IMG/VR virus record: IMGVR_UViG_3300048922_000476
Coordinates: 1 to 39,428 of that record
Length of the DNA: 39,428 bases
Source of the DNA: a virus
Direction: 5' to 3' (one strand)
This document shows, one piece after another, positions 26,232 through 39,428 of this stretch. Position 1 is the stretch's first letter. Each line of letters starts with the position of its first letter. Made by a program: the position numbers and the translations under genes. Under the pieces are notes generated by a model that was given only the letters and a program-made list of their open reading frames with translations, made no database searches and was not told the DNA's origin.

Positions 26232-26639
26232 ATGACAAAGGTCGCAGAAATCATCGTCGGCGCCCTTGGGCTGCTCCGCGTGATCGATCCCAATGAAGCA
26301 CCAGAGGCTGAGGATGCGGAAGGTGCGATCGCTTCCCTGAACCGCATGATGGCGCGCTGGGAGGCTAACGGTTACTCAGTAGGCTGGTCGCCAGTGTCCA
26401 ATCCTGACGATGACATGCCTACGCCGGTCGAGACTGACGAGGCGATCATGTACAACCTGGCTGTCCGCCTACGCCCTTTCTACGGCGTGGCGGTCGATCC
26501 GGACGTATTCAATGAAGCGCGGCGGCTGAAGTCCGACGTGCTGGCTGACGTTTTCTCGTCCAGCCCAATGAGCATGGAACCCGGTCTGCCCGGTTTCCGT
26601 TGCCGTTACAACATCCGTAGCGATGGGTACGACCGCTGA
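26232..26639 (+). CDS. Head-completion protein (P22 gp4-like)
   Basis: This 135-residue protein matches P22 gp4-type tail accessory factors: AEIIVGALGLLRVIDPNEAP, then LNRMMARWEANGYSVGWSPV and YNLAVRLRPFYGVAVDPDVF. gp4 sits under the portal ring and starts assembly of the tail. It is a little shorter than gp4 (166). Its stop shares one base with the gp10-like gene. Confidence 0.88.
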   Translation: MTKVAEIIVGALGLLRVIDPNEAPEAEDAEGAIASLNRMMARWEANGYSVGWSPVSNPDDDMPTPVETDEAIMYNLAVRLRPFYGVAVDPDVFNEARRLKSDVLADVFSSSPMSMEPGLPGFRCRYNIRSDGYDR

Positions 26640-29041
26640 TGCGCGCCACCCCCGTCTCCCTGATCGGCGGCTTCTACGCTGACGACACGCTGCCGTGGTC
26701 GTGCCAGGACACTGTGAACTGGCTTCCGGTGATGGCGGAGGTCGAGGGCACGCTGACGCCGAGCAAGCTGGCGACGCCGCCGGGCCTGATGCCGTACCAG
26801 CAGATCGGCACCGGGCCGATTCGCGGCATGCACGACCTGGAGGGTGGCCGCTTCATCGTATCGGGCCGGTATCTGTATCGGATCAACAATCAGGGTGCTG
26901 CCACCCAGATCGGCACGATTCCCGGCGTCGGCCGCGTCACGATGACGCACAACCAGTTCAAGACCGGCTACCAGATGCTGATCGAGAACGGGCAGGGCGG
27001 CGGCGGGTACGTCTACGACTCGAACACGCAGACGCTGGCGCGCATCACGGACGAGGGCTATCCGGGTTCGATCTCATCGGACTATCTCGATTCCTACCTG
27101 CTCGGCGTGGAGCCGCAGGGCCGCTACTGGTTCCATAGCAATCTGGCTGACGCCACCGACTACAACACGTTGGATCGCTACGAGTCCGAGGCATCGCCGG
27201 ACAAGATCGTCGGCCTGGCGGTGAGCCAGTTCGAAGTGGTGGTGTTCAACCAGCGCACGATCGAGTTCTTCTACAACGCAGGCGGTGCAACTGGCACGTT
27301 CCAGAACCGCCGGCAGTCGATCACTCGTGGCTGCGCGTCGCGCCACAGCATCGCCAAGCTGGACAACACCCTGTTCTGGCTGGGGGATGACGGTGTGGTC
27401 TACCGGTTGGAAGGCTACTCGGCGCGTCCGGTGTCTACCGGCCCGATGCACCGTGCCTTCGCCGGCAAGAACTGGGCCGAGGCCTTCGCCTTCACCTGGG
27501 AGGACCGCGGATTCAAGGTCTACTACCTGACCTTCCCGGACGGTATGACCTTCGGCTATGACGTGGTGTCGGGCCTGTGGACGCGCCGGGAGTCTTTCGG
27601 CCTCAACCGCTGGCGCCTGAGCCACACGGTGAAGTGGGGTGATAAGTGGTACGGCGGCGACTACCAGAATGGCCGCACCTGGGAGATTAAGTGGGATCAC
27701 AACCTTGAGGGCAGTCGTCCGATCATCGGACGCCGAATCAGCGGATATGTGCAGGACGCGCAGAGCAATGTGGTCATCCCCAATGCAGAGCTGATATTCG
27801 ACACGGGATCGGAAGCGACGCCGCTGCCTGTTTTGACTCTGACTGGTGACCAGCCCAACGGCGTGGTCGGCGATGATCCTGGAGCGATCGCCTACGTGGC
27901 CTCTGGCGGCCTTGAGCCGTACCAGTACGAGATCATCTCCGGCTCGCTTCCTGCGGGCCGCACGCTCAATCAGCAGACAGGCCAAGTCACCGGAACCTAC
28001 ACCACGTCCGGCTCATATGCCTGGACGATCCGCGCGACCGACGGCGAAGGCCTTGTCGCCTCGCTGGCGGACCAGTCGCAGGTGGTGGTCGGGAATGTGA
28101 CGGTCAGCCTCGTGACGAACCTCCCGCCGGCAGGGCCTGTCGGTACGATTTCGTGGTCGCCGGACGACCAGTATTTGGCGATCTCGACCAGCGCATCGCC
28201 CTACCTGTGGGTCTACAAGCGAGTAGGGGACACTTTCACCTCGCTTACCTTGCCTGCTACGGGCATGGCCGGACGCGCACAGGGGCTCACATGGTCTCCA
28301 GACGGTACGACTCTGGCCGTTGCGCCTGAAAGCACGGTGTTCCCGTTCGTGCTGCGCCGTACAGGCGACGCTTTCACGCTCCAGACACTTGGCGACCAGG
28401 CCATCAACCTTCAAGAGCGCGGGTTGGTATACAACGCGGCTGGAACTCGCCTGAAGCTGACCTATCAGAGCGCTATTTATGGCTGGTCGGTAGCTGGCGG
28501 CGTCTACACGGCCACCGGGAAGTCAGCGGACCTCCCCAACTCCAATGCGTACACGCTGGAGGCGAGCGATTGGTCTAGTGACGGGCAGCTCTTCGCCACC
28601 GGCCTCTCTACGACGCCGTGGCTCTGCCTATGGAGCTTGGCCGGCGAGGCATTCGTAGCGCAGTCGCTTCCTGCCGCGGTTGCATCCTCTGCGCTGCAGC
28701 CTCGGTTTGCTCCTGGTGCTGGATACATGGGCTGGGCTACCAGCGCCACGCCGTTCGTGAAGCTCTACCGCCGCAATGGCGCTGCCTACACCTTCACCGA
28801 AATGACCGGATTGCCGGCCGCTGACGCGACGGCCAATTGCTTCGAATGGTCGCCAACTACCGCGAATTTCGCAGTTGGTGGGAATGCTCTTCGAATTTAC
28901 AAGCGATCGGGCAACTCGGTGACGCTGACGACAACGTACGCAGTTGGCTCGGTAGTCGGGATTTCGTGGTCGCCTAGCGGCCAGTACATCGCCGCGCTGC
29001 GCAACGGCGGCACCACCATCCTCAAGGCGCAGATGACCTGA
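26639..29041 (+). CDS. P22 gp10-like DNA-stabilization protein with added Ig and propeller domains
   Basis: This 800-residue protein is larger than P22 gp10 (472). Residues 1-390 are the normal gp10 body: RATPVSLIGGFYADDTLPWS, the DTVNWLPVMAEVEG segment, ITRGCASRHSIAKLDNTLFW and NAELIFDTG at its end. Then comes an Ig-like domain (about 395-486, ASGGLEPYQYEIISGSLPAG, VTGTYTTSGSYAWTIRATDG; He_PIG type). Residues 498-800 are a seven-repeat beta-propeller with repeated WSPDDQYLAI/WSPDGTTLAV/WSPSGQYIAA motifs. The usual gp10 C-terminal domain is missing here and is instead the next gene. The added part may reach the surface and bind a host factor or another tail part. Confidence 0.9.
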   Translation: MRATPVSLIGGFYADDTLPWSCQDTVNWLPVMAEVEGTLTPSKLATPPGLMPYQQIGTGPIRGMHDLEGGRFIVSGRYLYRINNQGAATQIGTIPGVGRVTMTHNQFKTGYQMLIENGQGGGGYVYDSNTQTLARITDEGYPGSISSDYLDSYLLGVEPQGRYWFHSNLADATDYNTLDRYESEASPDKIVGLAVSQFEVVVFNQRTIEFFYNAGGATGTFQNRRQSITRGCASRHSIAKLDNTLFWLGDDGVVYRLEGYSARPVSTGPMHRAFAGKNWAEAFAFTWEDRGFKVYYLTFPDGMTFGYDVVSGLWTRRESFGLNRWRLSHTVKWGDKWYGGDYQNGRTWEIKWDHNLEGSRPIIGRRISGYVQDAQSNVVIPNAELIFDTGSEATPLPVLTLTGDQPNGVVGDDPGAIAYVASGGLEPYQYEIISGSLPAGRTLNQQTGQVTGTYTTSGSYAWTIRATDGEGLVASLADQSQVVVGNVTVSLVTNLPPAGPVGTISWSPDDQYLAISTSASPYLWVYKRVGDTFTSLTLPATGMAGRAQGLTWSPDGTTLAVAPESTVFPFVLRRTGDAFTLQTLGDQAINLQERGLVYNAAGTRLKLTYQSAIYGWSVAGGVYTATGKSADLPNSNAYTLEASDWSSDGQLFATGLSTTPWLCLWSLAGEAFVAQSLPAAVASSALQPRFAPGAGYMGWATSATPFVKLYRRNGAAYTFTEMTGLPAADATANCFEWSPTTANFAVGGNALRIYKRSGNSVTLTTTYAVGSVVGISWSPSGQYIAALRNGGTTILKAQMT

Positions 29042-29268
29042 TGGACGACACCGACCACTACGTCGAGGTCCGCTACAGCAAGGACGGCGGCCGCAACTGG
29101 AGCAACTGGAAGCGGCGTTCTCTGGGCGCGATCGGTGAGTACCAGAAGCGCATCAAGCTGAAGCGCATGGGTGTCGCCCGCACTTGGGTCTTCGATATCA
29201 AGGTGTCTTCGCCCCGCAAGCGCGACTTGCTCGGGGCTGTTGTGACCGTGGAAAGGACTGACGGCTGA
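29041..29268 (+). CDS. Detached C-terminal domain of gp10-like protein
   Basis: This 75-residue protein (HYVEVRYSKDGGRNWSNWKR, then GAIGEYQKRIKLKRMGVART) matches the domain that normally ends P22 gp10-like proteins (SxDGGxxWS, SLGxxGEY, RxLGxxR). Its ATG shares one base with the stop of the propeller-bearing gene (TGATG). The 390-residue gp10 body plus this domain equals about the length of P22 gp10, so the C-terminal domain has been split off. It probably binds back to the same tail ring. Confidence 0.8.
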   Translation: MDDTDHYVEVRYSKDGGRNWSNWKRRSLGAIGEYQKRIKLKRMGVARTWVFDIKVSSPRKRDLLGAVVTVERTDG

Positions 29269-29813
29269 TGCTAACCATTGACGATGCCCCCCTGGACGCG
29301 CAGGCGCTCCGGGCGGCGGGGCTGCGCGCGCCGTATGTGGATTGGCCCGGTCACGATGGCCAGGTCTACAAGCGCGTTTGCCTGACCGAGATCCCCGGCC
29401 TGCGGGATGCGATCGAGGCTCAGATGGGCCCGGTCGAAATGCTGGGCATGGCCTACCGGCTCAACTTCAACCACGAGTTGCCGAACGCAGCCATCCACTC
29501 GGACATGGGCTGGGGCACGCACGCCGCGGTGCTGTACCTGAGCGAAGGCGAGGGCGGCACGGCTTTCTGGCGGCACAAGGCCACGGGCGCTGCGCGCATC
29601 GAGCCGGGCGACATGGGCCTGTTTGAGCAGGTCTGCCACGACTGGGACGACGCGAGCAAGTGGGACCAGGTCGGCCTGGCTGAAATGAAGCTCGGGCGCC
29701 TACTGATCTACGAATCCGCACTGTTCCACAGCCGCTGGCCGTTCGAGGCCTTCGGCACCGATCACGACTCTGGCCGCCTCGTTGCGGTCGCCTTCTTTAC
29801 CCCGAGGGGCTGA
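29268..29813 (+). CDS. 2-oxoglutarate/Fe(II) oxygenase-like protein (DUF6445 type)
   Basis: This 181-residue protein has a double-stranded beta-helix layout with a HxD...H...R set: His77-Ser-Asp79 in AIHSDMGWGTHAAVLYLS, His154 in ALFHSRWPF, and Arg170 in SGRLVAVAFF. These are the usual iron and 2-oxoglutarate ligands. It resembles a phage protein family often placed near structural genes. Substrate is unknown; a protein or DNA hydroxylation role is possible. It starts with a shared base after the gp10 C-terminal gene and is directly coupled to a GNAT gene. Confidence 0.75.
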   Translation: MLTIDDAPLDAQALRAAGLRAPYVDWPGHDGQVYKRVCLTEIPGLRDAIEAQMGPVEMLGMAYRLNFNHELPNAAIHSDMGWGTHAAVLYLSEGEGGTAFWRHKATGAARIEPGDMGLFEQVCHDWDDASKWDQVGLAEMKLGRLLIYESALFHSRWPFEAFGTDHDSGRLVAVAFFTPRG

Positions 29814-30262
29814 TGACCACCATCCGCAAAGGAACTCTGGCCGACGTGCCGGAGATCGTCCGCATGTCCGCAGCTTTCTACCCGACCACCCATTACGCCC
29901 AGTGGTGCGACATGGACGAGGAGACGGTGGCCGATCTGGCGTCCAGCCTGATCGAGAACCACATCTTCTTCGTGGCCGAGGACGGCGACCGCCTGGTGGG
30001 CATGGTCGGGCTCTTCATCATCCCCTTCATGTTCAACCGACACGCCACGTCCGCCGGCGAGGTCGTGTGGTGGGTCGATCCGGAGGCGCGCGGCTCCCGC
30101 GTTGCCGCCTCGTTGCTCCAGGCAGTCGAATGCGCCTGCCGCGATGCCGGCGCCGACCGCATCCAGATGGTGCACATGCCCAACAGCCCGCCGCAGGCCG
30201 CCGCTCTCTACGAGCGACTGGGCTACTCCCGATCCGAAATCAGCTACACCAAGGACATCTGA
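29813..30262 (+). CDS. GNAT-family acetyltransferase
   Basis: This 149-residue protein has a GNAT fold: DVPEIVRMSAAFYP at the start, HIFFVAEDGDRLVGMVGLFI, acetyl-CoA motif A (VVWWVDPEARGSRVAASLL with R93-G94-S95), and motif B (AALYERLGYSRSE). It should transfer an acetyl group from acetyl-CoA to an unknown target. Its ATG shares a base with the upstream oxygenase-like stop, so the two are probably co-translated. The pair sits among virion genes and may modify virion proteins, small molecules or the host. Confidence 0.85.
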   Translation: MTTIRKGTLADVPEIVRMSAAFYPTTHYAQWCDMDEETVADLASSLIENHIFFVAEDGDRLVGMVGLFIIPFMFNRHATSAGEVVWWVDPEARGSRVAASLLQAVECACRDAGADRIQMVHMPNSPPQAAALYERLGYSRSEISYTKDI

Positions 30263-34808: not shown

Positions 34809-34835
34809 CGGGATCGTCCTTGGATGGATGGCCGA

Positions 34836-34844
34836 ATCCTACCA
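34836..34844 (-). promoter_or_regulatory. Extended -10 promoter of the antisense gene
   Basis: On the minus strand TGGTAGGAT reads as an extended -10 (TGN-TAGGAT), about 28 nt before the ATG at 34808. There is no good -35 box, which extended -10 promoters do not need. It supports independent expression of the small membrane protein. Confidence 0.45.
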
Positions 34845-34871
34845 CCGCCGGACCACTGCCGCGTTATCCAC

Positions 34872-34895
34872 AGCCCGCCCTGAGCGGGCTTTTTT
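34872..34895 (+). terminator. Rho-independent terminator before the tail fibre genes
   Basis: AGCCCGC, loop CCTGA, GCGGGCT is followed by TTTTTT. It lies about 220 nt after the last ejection gene and just before the fibre gene start, so fibre expression needs antitermination or read-through. It also insulates the antisense gene's promoter. Confidence 0.85.
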
Positions 34896-34911
34896 ATTGC
34901 CTGGAGCACCC

Positions 34912-35697
34912 ATGAGCGGACGTTTCTACGACCCGAACCCCACGTATTTCGATCTGCTCAGCAACCAGCCGGTGGCCGGCGGGTTCTTGGCCTTCTACCT
35001 GCAGAGCACGACGACGCCGAAGCTGACGTGGTCGGATCAGGCGCTGACGATCCCGAACACGAACCCGGTCCCGCTGGACTCTTCTGGCCGGGCAAACGTG
35101 AATATCTGGCTGAGCGGCGCATACACGGTGGTGCTGCGTGACTCGCTGGGGGCGGTGATCTGGACGCGAGATGTCAGCGATGGCGCTGCGGGCGGGCTGA
35201 CGATCCCCACGCCGCTGCCTTCCGGCCAGTTCCTGACCAACGACGGCTCTATCCTGTCCTGGGCCTCGATCCTGCAGCCGCCGGATCCGACCGGCTCGGA
35301 CGGCTACTACCTGACGGCGAATGGGGGCGCCTACGTCCTGACCGCGCCACCCACGATCCCGACACCGAACTACAGCTTCGGGGACAACTTCACCAAGATC
35401 GGGACCAACCTGGACCAGTGGGGCACCGGTTCGATCCCGGCCAGCGCGGCGCAGATCGCCACGGGCAACATCACGTTCCCCGTGCCGTACCTCACGGTCC
35501 CGAACCTGCAGGTCACGATCAACAAGGGCTCCGGCGTGGTGTCGGCGGGGTACATCGGCGATATCGGCGTGTCCGCCGTCAGCACCACCGGTGCCACCAT
35601 CGCATGGGACTTGGGGATCGATGACGTCCGGTCGCAGTACAACCTGACCAGCCCGATTCCGATCATGTGGCGTGCGGTGGGCAAGGTCGCTGCCTGA
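34912..35697 (+). CDS. Tail fibre / head-binding protein
   Basis: This 261-residue protein starts MSGRFYDPNPTYFDLLSNQP and has an N-terminal part with SSGRANVNIWLSGAYTVVLR that resembles the virion-attachment domain of phage tail fibre proteins. A linker (TIPTPLPSGQFLTNDGSILS) follows, and the end (VPNLQVTINKGSGVVSAGYI, then WDLGIDDVRSQYNLT) may be a small receptor- or fibre-binding tip. It is the first gene of the fibre module; the ATG at 34912 has GGAG upstream. Confidence 0.75.
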   Translation: MSGRFYDPNPTYFDLLSNQPVAGGFLAFYLQSTTTPKLTWSDQALTIPNTNPVPLDSSGRANVNIWLSGAYTVVLRDSLGAVIWTRDVSDGAAGGLTIPTPLPSGQFLTNDGSILSWASILQPPDPTGSDGYYLTANGGAYVLTAPPTIPTPNYSFGDNFTKIGTNLDQWGTGSIPASAAQIATGNITFPVPYLTVPNLQVTINKGSGVVSAGYIGDIGVSAVSTTGATIAWDLGIDDVRSQYNLTSPIPIMWRAVGKVAA

Positions 35698-36626
35698 TGG
35701 CATCCCCGGCTGACGTACCGCGCATCGCGGAGCCAATCGCTGGGAACGGCGGCTTCGTCACTCGGGCGTGGCTGGACTTCTTCCTCAAGTTGGCCTCGGC
35801 GCAGACTGAGCAGAATCTGGCCGAGCTGTACGCGCAGCTTGCCGCCCGTGTGGCGGAGCTGGAGGATGGCCAATCACTGAGCTTCCAGCTGCTCGGGCAG
35901 GGATCGATCGGCGTACAGGGCATTCCTCAGCCTGGCGGCGCGGTGATTATCACCCTCCAGAACGACGACGACGCGCCCGGCAACACGATGTACTACGGCA
36001 CCGGGCCGACTGGCGACAAGGGCTGGTTCTCCGTATCCAGCGCGATCGCCGGCACCACGAACCAGATCGTGAAGACGACTGGGCCGGATGGGGTGGCGAC
36101 GCTGAGCCTAGCCCCGGCGGTCATCACGTCGCTCGGCAAGGCCGACAGCGCGGTGCAGTCGATCCAGCCGGGCACGGGCATCACGGTGAACAACGCCGAC
36201 CCGCGCAATCCGATCGTGTCTGCGCCGGGCTCGGGCTTCGCGCCGCCGCCGACCGATGGCTCGCCTTACATCGGGCTCAATGGCGCATGGGAACAGGCTA
36301 ACGCCGCATCCTCGCGGTTCTTCCTGATCGAGTACCCGCTGCTCACCGACCAGGCGGGCAACCAGCTCACCGATCAGGCCGGCAACCCGCTGATCGCGAA
36401 CAGCCCGCTCATTCCGCCCGGCTGGCCCAGCATGACGACGGTCGTCGTGGCTGCCGCGCCGCAGGTCATGACGCTGGCGCAGGCCAACGCGCTGAGCGGC
36501 GTTCTGGATGGTCAGGAGGTGTTGATCACCGACTTGGCCGGCGGCCGTGAGCCGTGCTGGTACGACGGGTCCATTTCGAGCGGCACGCGCTGGCGCCGCT
36601 ACTCTGACCGGAGCATCGCGAACTGA
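35697..36626 (+). CDS. Tail fibre protein, coiled-coil and beta-rich
   Basis: This 309-residue protein has an N-terminal helix and coiled coil (NLAELYAQLAARVAELEDGQ) followed by beta-rich fibre-type segments (SIQPGTGITVNNADPRNPIV), a duplicated TDQAGN motif near residue 220 (LLTDQAGNQLTDQAGNPLIA), and a C-terminal beta domain (QVMTLAQANALSGVLDGQEV, then CWYDGSISSGTRWRRYSDRS). It looks like a fibre stem; family unknown. One-base overlaps join it to both neighbours. Confidence 0.7.
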   Translation: MASPADVPRIAEPIAGNGGFVTRAWLDFFLKLASAQTEQNLAELYAQLAARVAELEDGQSLSFQLLGQGSIGVQGIPQPGGAVIITLQNDDDAPGNTMYYGTGPTGDKGWFSVSSAIAGTTNQIVKTTGPDGVATLSLAPAVITSLGKADSAVQSIQPGTGITVNNADPRNPIVSAPGSGFAPPPTDGSPYIGLNGAWEQANAASSRFFLIEYPLLTDQAGNQLTDQAGNPLIANSPLIPPGWPSMTTVVVAAAPQVMTLAQANALSGVLDGQEVLITDLAGGREPCWYDGSISSGTRWRRYSDRSIAN

Positions 36627-37369
36627 TGGCCCTCGACCCGTCCATTTCGATCATCCGCGGCCTGCAGGCGTCGGTCGACCTCAACGGCCTGACGGTCCGC
36701 GTCACGCCTGGCATGTGCTACGTGCCGGGTACTGGGCGGGTGCTGAGCGACGGTACGGCCTCGGTGACGCTGAGCAGCCCGACGCCCAACACGTTCTACC
36801 ACCTGTACGCCTACGACATGGGCGGTGGCCTGATGGGGCTGGAGGCAAGCACTACGCCGCCGGACGCGCCATACCTGGGGACGGCCCGCTGCAAGACTGG
36901 CGATCCGACGCGCCGCTATCTGATCTCCGGCCGCACCAATGCCAGCAGCGTCCTGCGCCCCGGCAAGCACACCCGGCCGGCGGAGATGGGCAACCGGGTG
37001 ATGCTCGACGCTGCTACGGCCGCCGGGTCGGTTCCGATCACCCTGCTGTCCGGATTGGTGGCCACGACCCCGCAGACCATCGACCTGTCCGCCGTGCTGC
37101 CCGTCACCGCTGACCGCGCCATCGTGCAGGTCTTCAACCCGACCAACTTCACGCTCTATACGTCGCGATCTGAGGTGGGGGCGCCCTCGGCGACCAACTT
37201 CCAGTACGCCGCAATCCCCGGCTCTTGCCCCGTGCTTGACGTCACCCTCGACGCGAACAGGCAGTTCACGGTCCTTCTCAGCGCGACGCTCCCTCTTATT
37301 GGGCCGATCCTCGGCCTGCTCACTGGTTCGGTGTCGATCACGCTGGTCGGCTACGACTTCAATCGCTAG
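36626..37369 (+). CDS. Tail fibre paralogue 1
   Basis: This 247-residue protein shares a module with the next gene: TVRVTPGMCYVPGTGRVL, NTFYHLYAYDMGGGLMGLEA, PYLGTARCKTGDPTRRYLI and SGRTNASS. The C-terminal part (LLSGLVATTPQTIDLSAVLP, then NPTNFTLYTSRSEVGA) is different from its neighbour's except for the 'DLSAVLPVTADRAIV' strand. These two probably came from a duplication of one receptor-binding or fibre gene. No enzymatic motif is seen. Confidence 0.7.
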   Translation: MALDPSISIIRGLQASVDLNGLTVRVTPGMCYVPGTGRVLSDGTASVTLSSPTPNTFYHLYAYDMGGGLMGLEASTTPPDAPYLGTARCKTGDPTRRYLISGRTNASSVLRPGKHTRPAEMGNRVMLDAATAAGSVPITLLSGLVATTPQTIDLSAVLPVTADRAIVQVFNPTNFTLYTSRSEVGAPSATNFQYAAIPGSCPVLDVTLDANRQFTVLLSATLPLIGPILGLLTGSVSITLVGYDFNR

Positions 37370-37378
37370 GACCCCATC

Positions 37379-38143
37379 ATGGCCAACGTCAAGTACGCCG
37401 ATCCCACCTACACCGACATCCCGCCCACCGACGACGACAAGGTGATGTTCCGCACCGGTGCCGGCGGCGACGCGCGCGGCTCCATCGTCCAGCCGAAGGG
37501 CTACATCGACGGGCTGAAGATGGTCTGGGTATCCGGCACGCAGGTACAGATCACCCCCGGCGCCGCCTACGTGCCCGGGCCGAAGCGCATCGCCGAACTG
37601 GCCTCGGCGGTGACCCTCACGCCGACCCTTGCCGCCAATACCTGGTATCACAGCTACCTGACCGTCAGCGGCAGCACGGTTGGCGTCGAGGCTGTGACTA
37701 CCGCCCCGGCCGCCCCCTACAACGGCACCGCGCGCGCCAAGACCGGCGACACCTCGCGGCGGTACATCGGGAGTTTCCGCACGAATTCTTCAGCAGCAAT
37801 CATGAAATTCGCGTGCTCCGGCGATCTGCTGGTCTACGACCTGGCAGCGGGGAGCATGGAGCTTCGCCTTGTAAGTGGGTCGGCTACGGTGGCCACTCCA
37901 TTCAGCGTATCGGCTGTGGTTCCTGTAACTGCATCAGTGATCCGAGTGTTCCTTACCAATGCCGTAGGGGGTACTTCGCTGTTTGTGGGAACTCCGGCAA
38001 ACAACTCATTCGTTGCAATTTTCCCCGGCAATGTCAGCGCGTTCGATGTTCCTTTTGATCCAGCTGACCCGAGAATGGTCTACCGCCTCACCGGGGCCGG
38101 GACGGGAACTGTTGACGCCAATGGCTTTTACATTGAGAGGTGA
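37379..38143 (+). CDS. Tail fibre paralogue 2
   Basis: This 254-residue protein shares with gene 36626-37369 the segments QVQITPGAAYVPGPKR, NTWYHSYLTVSGSTVGVEAV, PYNGTARAKTGDTSRRYIG and SFRTNSS. The N-terminus (KYADPTYTDIPPTDDDKVMF) is unique. From about nucleotide 37790 the C-terminal part (FACSGDLLVYDLAAG, then ASVIRVFLTNAVGGTSLFVG) has lower GC and different codon use, suggesting a swapped tip. This is likely the receptor-binding end of the fibre. Confidence 0.7.
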   Translation: MANVKYADPTYTDIPPTDDDKVMFRTGAGGDARGSIVQPKGYIDGLKMVWVSGTQVQITPGAAYVPGPKRIAELASAVTLTPTLAANTWYHSYLTVSGSTVGVEAVTTAPAAPYNGTARAKTGDTSRRYIGSFRTNSSAAIMKFACSGDLLVYDLAAGSMELRLVSGSATVATPFSVSAVVPVTASVIRVFLTNAVGGTSLFVGTPANNSFVAIFPGNVSAFDVPFDPADPRMVYRLTGAGTGTVDANGFYIER

Positions 38144-39047: not shown

Positions 39048-39428
39048 ATGAGCGCGCTGCAGGATCTTCGGGTACTGGTGGTCGAGAACGACGAAATGAG
39101 CGCATCCCTGCTGCAGATGCAGCTGATCCAGTCCGGCGCCATCGTGGTCGGGCTGGCGGCCTCGGTGGGCGAGGCGTTGCGGCTGCTGGGAGAGACCCAG
39201 CCGCAGGTTGCCCTGCTGGACTATCGGCTGGCCAACAACGAAACGAGTGAGTCCGTGGCCGCAGCGTTGGCTGCGCGTCAGATCCCCTTCGTCCTGGCCA
39301 CCGGCATGGCCACTGACCATCTGCCCGATGCCTTCCGTTCGGGCGTGATCCTGAGTAAGCCGTACCTGACGGCTGAATTGAACGCCGCCCTGGCGCGCGC
39401 GCAGGTCGGCGATTCCGTCGCCGGCTGA
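39048..39428 (+). CDS. Stand-alone response regulator receiver protein (chromosomal)
   Basis: This 126-residue protein is a receiver domain only: LRVLVVENDEMSAS with the acidic pair Glu13/Asp15, phosphoacceptor Asp58 in VALLDYRLAN, Thr85 in FVLATGMAT and Lys104 in ILSKPYL. It has no output domain, so it probably acts by protein contacts, such as with a histidine kinase. The ATG at 39048 has GGGAG upstream. It lies beyond the tRNA and should be a host gene. Confidence 0.93.
   Translation: MSALQDLRVLVVENDEMSASLLQMQLIQSGAIVVGLAASVGEALRLLGETQPQVALLDYRLANNETSESVAAALAARQIPFVLATGMATDHLPDAFRSGVILSKPYLTAELNAALARAQVGDSVAG

Follow-up and report, generated by a model that had tools for sequence, protein, structure and literature searches.

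Gene content of the locus

The locus under study covers positions 26,232–29,268 of the IMG/VR record IMGVR_UViG_3300048922_000476, of which positions 1–39,428 were analysed as a whole (hereafter, the window). Based on profile searches, the neighbouring genes encode a P22-like portal, a gp4-like adaptor and a protein matching a DNA-ejection family and, as an integrase is also encoded at the start of the window, the sequence most likely belongs to a temperate P22-like phage. The nozzle gene follows the adaptor gene and precedes those of the ejection proteins, which is the order of the P22 gp10 type. The following features were delineated:

26232..26639, + strand: P22 gp4-like head-tail adaptor, expected docking partner of the platform (phrog_637, E 1e-25; P22_Tail-4 above cut-off)
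26639..27808, + strand: P22 gp10-like nozzle/head-closure body, residues 1–390 (N-terminal platform strands, beta-propeller and platform strands preceding the cut)
27812..28090, + strand: Ig-like (He_PIG) domain, residues ~392–484, first part of the cassette
28091..29038, + strand: seven-repeat WD40-type beta-propeller, residues ~485–800, variable module
29039..29043, + strand: TGATG stop/start overlap between the end of the cassette and the C-terminal gene (read from the sequence)
29041..29268, + strand: gp10 C-terminal (platform) peptide of 75 aa, a gene of its own

Directly 3' of the nozzle, positions 29268–29813 encode a DUF6445 protein with weak similarity to 2OG-Fe(II) oxygenases (PHROG 'minor coat protein'), and a related locus, L105, has an ORF with near-identical motifs at the corresponding position. 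A GNAT acetyltransferase is encoded at 29813–30262, between the nozzle and the ejection genes; an acetyltransferase likewise lies near gp10 in Xanthomonas phage PBR31. Further tail-fibre-like genes are situated at 34828–38143, where two adjacent phrog_34307 proteins of 247 and 254 aa (36626–38143) suggest duplicated fibre parts and are followed by a gene for a tail assembly chaperone (Phage_tail_APC). The end of the window (39048–39428) encodes a response-regulator receiver-domain protein, either phage cargo or host flank.

Composition of the nozzle protein

The ORF at 26639–29041 encodes a chain of 800 aa, in which a gp10-type body is followed by an He_PIG Ig domain and a seven-repeat WD40-type propeller, the composition given in the preliminary description from sequence inspection. 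Profile searches and modelling bore out each part. Residues 1–390 matched positions 1–397 of phrog_578 (head closure Hc3; 486 positions) with E 5e-101, and the family match extended over profile positions 1–414 with E 1e-101; the body alone scored above the cut-off for Pfam Phage_stabilise, and its model aligns to P22 gp10 (see below). The Ig domain behind it reached 35.3 bits with He_PIG (cut-off 24) and was modelled with pLDDT of ~81–94. Seven WSPxGxxLA-like repeats were found, at residues 506, 552, 598, 645, 690, 737 and 777, as compared with a mean of 0.12 and a maximum of three matches in shuffled sequence; the segment scored above the Pfam cut-offs for WDR19_1st, ANAPC4_WD40 and PD40, and residues 484–800, when modelled, aligned to seven-bladed WD40 structures, e.g. 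RACK1, with Z of ~25. WD40 propellers often bind proteins, receptor binding not being a necessary function of the fold.

The 75-aa protein encoded at 29041–29268 matched positions 407–471 of the same 486-position phrog_578 profile (E 1e-11) and shared 42% identity with the C-terminal part of gp10 from Vibrio phage FGH, a single-chain protein. It is therefore, as had been proposed, the detached gp10 C-terminus, coupled to the preceding gene by the TGATG junction, and no second gp10 C-terminus was found within the window. Body and C-terminus together amount to 390 + 75 = 465 aa, in agreement with the earlier estimate of about one gp10 length and with the fused relatives (about 456–489 aa).

Distribution of split and fused forms

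A first scan of viral contigs yielded 22 loci, and the protein was split in all of those in which both pieces were readable. Wider scans produced 71 loci in viral contigs and seven in bacterial genomes, the hosts being Stenotrophomonas, Pseudoxanthomonas, Xanthomonas and [Pseudomonas] hibiscicola. After removal of duplicates, the adjacent split was present in 49 distinct loci, the window included, from metagenomes and Xanthomonadaceae prophages; 12 distinct loci had a single fused gp10 (~465 aa) without insert, and one, from Xanthomonas sp. NCPPB 1128 (L033), had an insert resembling a GTA_TIM glycosidase within one chain of 985 aa. The remaining distinct loci comprised five special cases and eight cut by contig ends. 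A draw of 395 Xanthomonadaceae genomes gave 19 matches (one weak), of which 18 were readable: ten combined insert and split, seven were fused without insert and one was fused with insert. Judging from the counts in both the distinct loci and this draw, the split goes with the insert.

The preliminary description would have been contradicted by close relatives with this layout as their common form. That is the case within the clade, where the layout is the common form (49 split loci), but not in the gp10 family at large, in which one fused chain is normal. No match covering 80% of the 800-aa query was detected in a phage collection, an absence that applies to that collection only, and those C-terminal matches there for which the annotation was read were all single-chain. 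An oddity of this genome alone was rejected, as the split is clade-wide with 48 further distinct loci. A continuous chain is typical of the P22 gp10-type nozzle without strictly defining it; with two ORFs in the window and in those 48 loci, we file the arrangement as a split variant of that type.

Isolate genomes of Stenotrophomonas, Pseudoxanthomonas and [Pseudomonas] hibiscicola carry the same split, as do dozens of independent contigs. That the stop stems from a sequencing error or marks a pseudogene, for which nothing was found in favour, is thereby refuted and retains a practically negligible probability; the stop is real, as the earlier reading required.

On a tree of the bodies, split and fused states were interleaved, so that several changes are required. 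One single-chain locus without insert, L067, was nested among inserted relatives, and gain or loss of the cassette must therefore recur; since such relatives do without it, the cassette is accessory.

Two further observations concern individual loci. L033 and L035 (NZ_LFME01000002.1) are two copies of the prophage gp10 region with an identical body, ~37 kb apart, possibly a tandem prophage, and the single-chain form with insert applies to L033/L035. In L069:6001–8342 the gp10 body breaks off after its first 272 residues and is resumed in a different frame; a sequencing error or a decayed copy is the probable cause.

The C-terminal gene and its junction

The C-terminal gene possessed a start codon in all 50 loci compared (ATG in 46, GTG or TTG in four), which lay between -7 and +4 nt from the stop in 47 of them, the overall spacing ranging from -7 to +25 nt. 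Pairing with the anti-Shine-Dalgarno sequence was stronger at this start (mean -5.2 kcal/mol) than at nearby positions (-2.8 kcal/mol; P 9e-9, 50 loci). The products of both 26639–29041 and 29041–29268 are probably translated. Extensions by frameshift or stop readthrough are known in phage genes, and the short TGATG overlap resembles a recoding site, so a single fused nozzle might be made by such an event at the junction. However, relative to the stop, the C-terminal start occurs in all three frames (31, 14 and four loci) and with all three stop codons, at the variable spacing given above. A conserved recoding event is thus excluded, and we rejected this explanation as scarcely credible.

Conceivably, the long chain works alone and the 75-aa product represents a relic or a repurposed peptide: this product is short, and its production is deduced from sequence. 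Against this, all inserted loci that are not truncated at a contig end possess the C-terminus, its start codon and ribosome site are conserved, and dN/dS values of 0.03–0.39 in the pairs tested indicate purifying selection in both the body and the C-terminal gene. Furthermore, the identities of body and C-terminus co-vary tightly (r = 0.87, 46 split loci), and the platform strands of the long chain are not predicted to fold without the 75-aa chain (see below). We therefore consider a relic very improbable.

The co-variation would be expected if both chains fit physically, while common descent alone would also yield a correlation. With the body accounted for, the C-terminus was independent of the module lying between the two (partial r = 0.02, same 46 loci), from which it follows that the module moves on its own. 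In L055/L056 the C-terminus had diverged more than the body, and hence it may sometimes travel with the cassette.

Exchange of modules at a single site

The sequences behind the body fell into about 20 unrelated module clusters, all at one site. WD40-like propellers account for 13 loci; another group, of ten loci including L100 and L072, gave no Pfam hit in the member scanned, and no relatives of the L100-type module were matched in cultured phages. Other types were DUF7483, the lectin-like Laminin-G/ConA (LamG), BNR (sialidase-like), SPRY and GTA_TIM, together with further ones without a Pfam hit. In L105 the SPRY protein has an ORF to itself, placed between those of the body and the C-terminus. 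The module of L044 matched the tail-fibre family phrog_24898, and in two lineages, L065 and L086/L090, the gap is filled by two tail-fibre family genes, phrog_4176 (E 2e-44 to 4e-56) and phrog_4950 (E 1e-31 to 2e-50), the second fibre protein ending in the fused gp10 C-terminus. This pair, of siphophage type, lies inside the gp10 gene at L065:7361–9339 and L086:7574–9447.

Unrelated modules were present behind near-identical bodies in L030/L040/L048 (96–97%), L045/L050 (96%) and L031/L054 (94%). In most such pairs DNA homology stops at, or up to about 100 nt past, codon ~390; in L031/L054 the break comes later, inside the Ig domain. The sequences match again from the C-terminal start codon or from a point no more than ~20 nt away. 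In relatives that combine near-identical bodies with unrelated modules, identity of the Ig domains falls to 15–45%; the Ig domain thus belongs to the swapped cassette and is largely exchanged together with the module. In L119, a prophage in genome G151, two tandem He_PIG-like Ig segments precede the module, as seen by eye in the translation.

The swapping of modules and the tail-fibre homology of some cassettes point indirectly to a putative role in receptor binding. Alternatively, the cassette may be a nozzle decoration with a structural or protective task (stability, gating or shielding), its variability reflecting neutral exchange. In its favour, the Ig domains of the nozzle proteins of SU10 (PMC9509320) and phicrAss001 (PMC10172136) serve architecture and gating, the window has separate fibre-like genes (34828–38143), and relatives without insert exist. 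Nevertheless, unrelated folds swapped between near-identical bodies, modules of carbohydrate-binding types and tail-fibre genes at the same site fit recognition better, and we regard decoration as rather unlikely.

Predicted structure and position of the cut

The single-chain L067 protein was modelled with pLDDT 77 and pTM 0.80 and aligned to P22 gp10 (8eap) with Z of 35.0 over 435 residues; the modelled chain of the window reached Z of 36.2 over 347 residues, so that both L067 and the body of the window have the fold of the solved gp10. Structure entries of P22, Sf6, Pam1 and Pan3 were also matched by the sequence profile search. In the L067 model the insertion point is a low-confidence loop (388–399) between strands 377–387 and 400–406.

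When the 800-aa chain was modelled alone, the body propeller and the Ig domain were confident and most of the module propeller was moderate; pLDDT was below 50 for module residues 610–694 and for residues 1–12, 33–43 and 367–395, the last three stretches being what the long chain contributes to the platform. The adaptor-facing platform of T7 gp12 is formed by its C-terminal domain, which includes three strands derived from the N-terminus (PMC6702177), and the platform of the SU10 nozzle is arranged in the same way (PMC9509320). The low confidence of these residues when the C-terminus is absent fits a platform built, as in T7, from N- and C-terminal strands (PMC6702177), and may partly reflect alignment depth. 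The cut is accordingly predicted to lie in a loop inside the beta-rich, adaptor-facing C-terminal platform domain, between two strands of one fold, and the domain boundary at which the insertion had been placed in the preliminary description was not upheld. From the predicted strands and homology, the 75-aa chain probably completes the platform fold in trans.

A candidate two-chain nozzle

We consider it fairly probable that the locus encodes a two-chain nozzle with a swappable receptor-binding cassette, in which the 75-aa chain would complete the platform in trans. The nozzle gene (P22 gp10/T7 gp12 class) accepts cassettes at a single fixed position, the predicted loop that joins the platform strand ending the body (residue ~388) to the first strand of the C-terminal segment. 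Each cassette brings an Ig-like linker domain, a variable, putatively binding module and a stop codon, and the remainder of the platform is specified by a second, coupled gene that has a start codon of its own. As the 3' border is a start codon, an incoming cassette would have to join in frame at its 5' end only, which would make replacement easy; a continuous chain with insert is also possible, as the single case of L033 shows. In the virion, the long chain would form the propeller body and display the module on the tail exterior, where it most likely contacts a receptor or glycan of the host surface alongside the downstream fibre genes, and the 75-aa chain would dock onto the long chain, completing the platform that binds the gp4-like adaptor. 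The two functional suggestions of the preliminary description, a large exposed module and a C-terminus working in trans, thus both appear likely, the latter being supported by the co-variation with the body.

A stronger form of this reading, which we rate as only a little better than even, is an obligate two-chain nozzle: a domain of the DNA-gating nozzle, split within its fold and completed in trans by the 75-aa chain would provide a frame-tolerant socket for the exchange of receptor-binding cassettes, up to the tail-fibre pair of another phage type. With a swappable cassette, the phage may probably change its grip on the host while keeping its nozzle.

Nozzle proteins are usually viewed as conserved conduits on which distinct spikes or fibres are mounted. 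In this lineage, recombination takes place within the nozzle gene and exchanges likely host-recognition parts, while the conserved core on either side of them stays intact. Such a natural split-protein arrangement would offer a concrete test of changing recognition without disturbing DNA gating, and it may mark an overlooked place for host-range determinants in Xanthomonadaceae prophages.

Comparison with known nozzle and fibre systems

The nozzles of P22 (gp10), Sf6 (gp8), Pam1 and Pan3 (PHROG 578) share with that of the window their sequence and fold, comprising a body plus a C-terminal segment, as well as gene order and a core length of ~465 aa. The solved structures of this type are one chain without insert, whereas in the window the chain is cut in a platform loop and an Ig domain and a propeller are added. 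T7 gp12 is of the same class and builds its platform from N- and C-terminal strands (PMC6702177), but it is a single chain, onto which the fibres dock as separate proteins.

As in the window, SU10 gp17 and phicrAss001 gp44 (muzzle) are nozzles enlarged by inserted domains, Ig-like ones among them, which in these two are exposed at the tail tip. Their inserts lie between or within propeller blades 2–3 of one chain (PMC9509320, PMC10172136), whereas that of the window (residue ~390) follows the complete propeller, lies in the platform and splits the protein. Modular receptor-binding proteins likewise join a conserved structural anchor to an exchangeable recognition module; unlike in those, the anchor here is the nozzle itself, and part of it is supplied by a gene of its own located past the module. 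Homologues of the tail-fibre pair phrog_4176/phrog_4950 of Xanthomonas, Stenotrophomonas and Pseudomonas phages such as CP2 occupy the insertion site in L065 and L086/L090, which differ from the CP2-type pair in the fusion of the gp10 C-terminus to the fibre protein.

In the literature consulted, largely open-access papers, no account of a split nozzle or of a gp10 cassette was found. Ig insertion into nozzle proteins is already known from SU10 and phicrAss001; what is new, within the open-access literature, is the split of the platform and the cassette site in the gp10 class.
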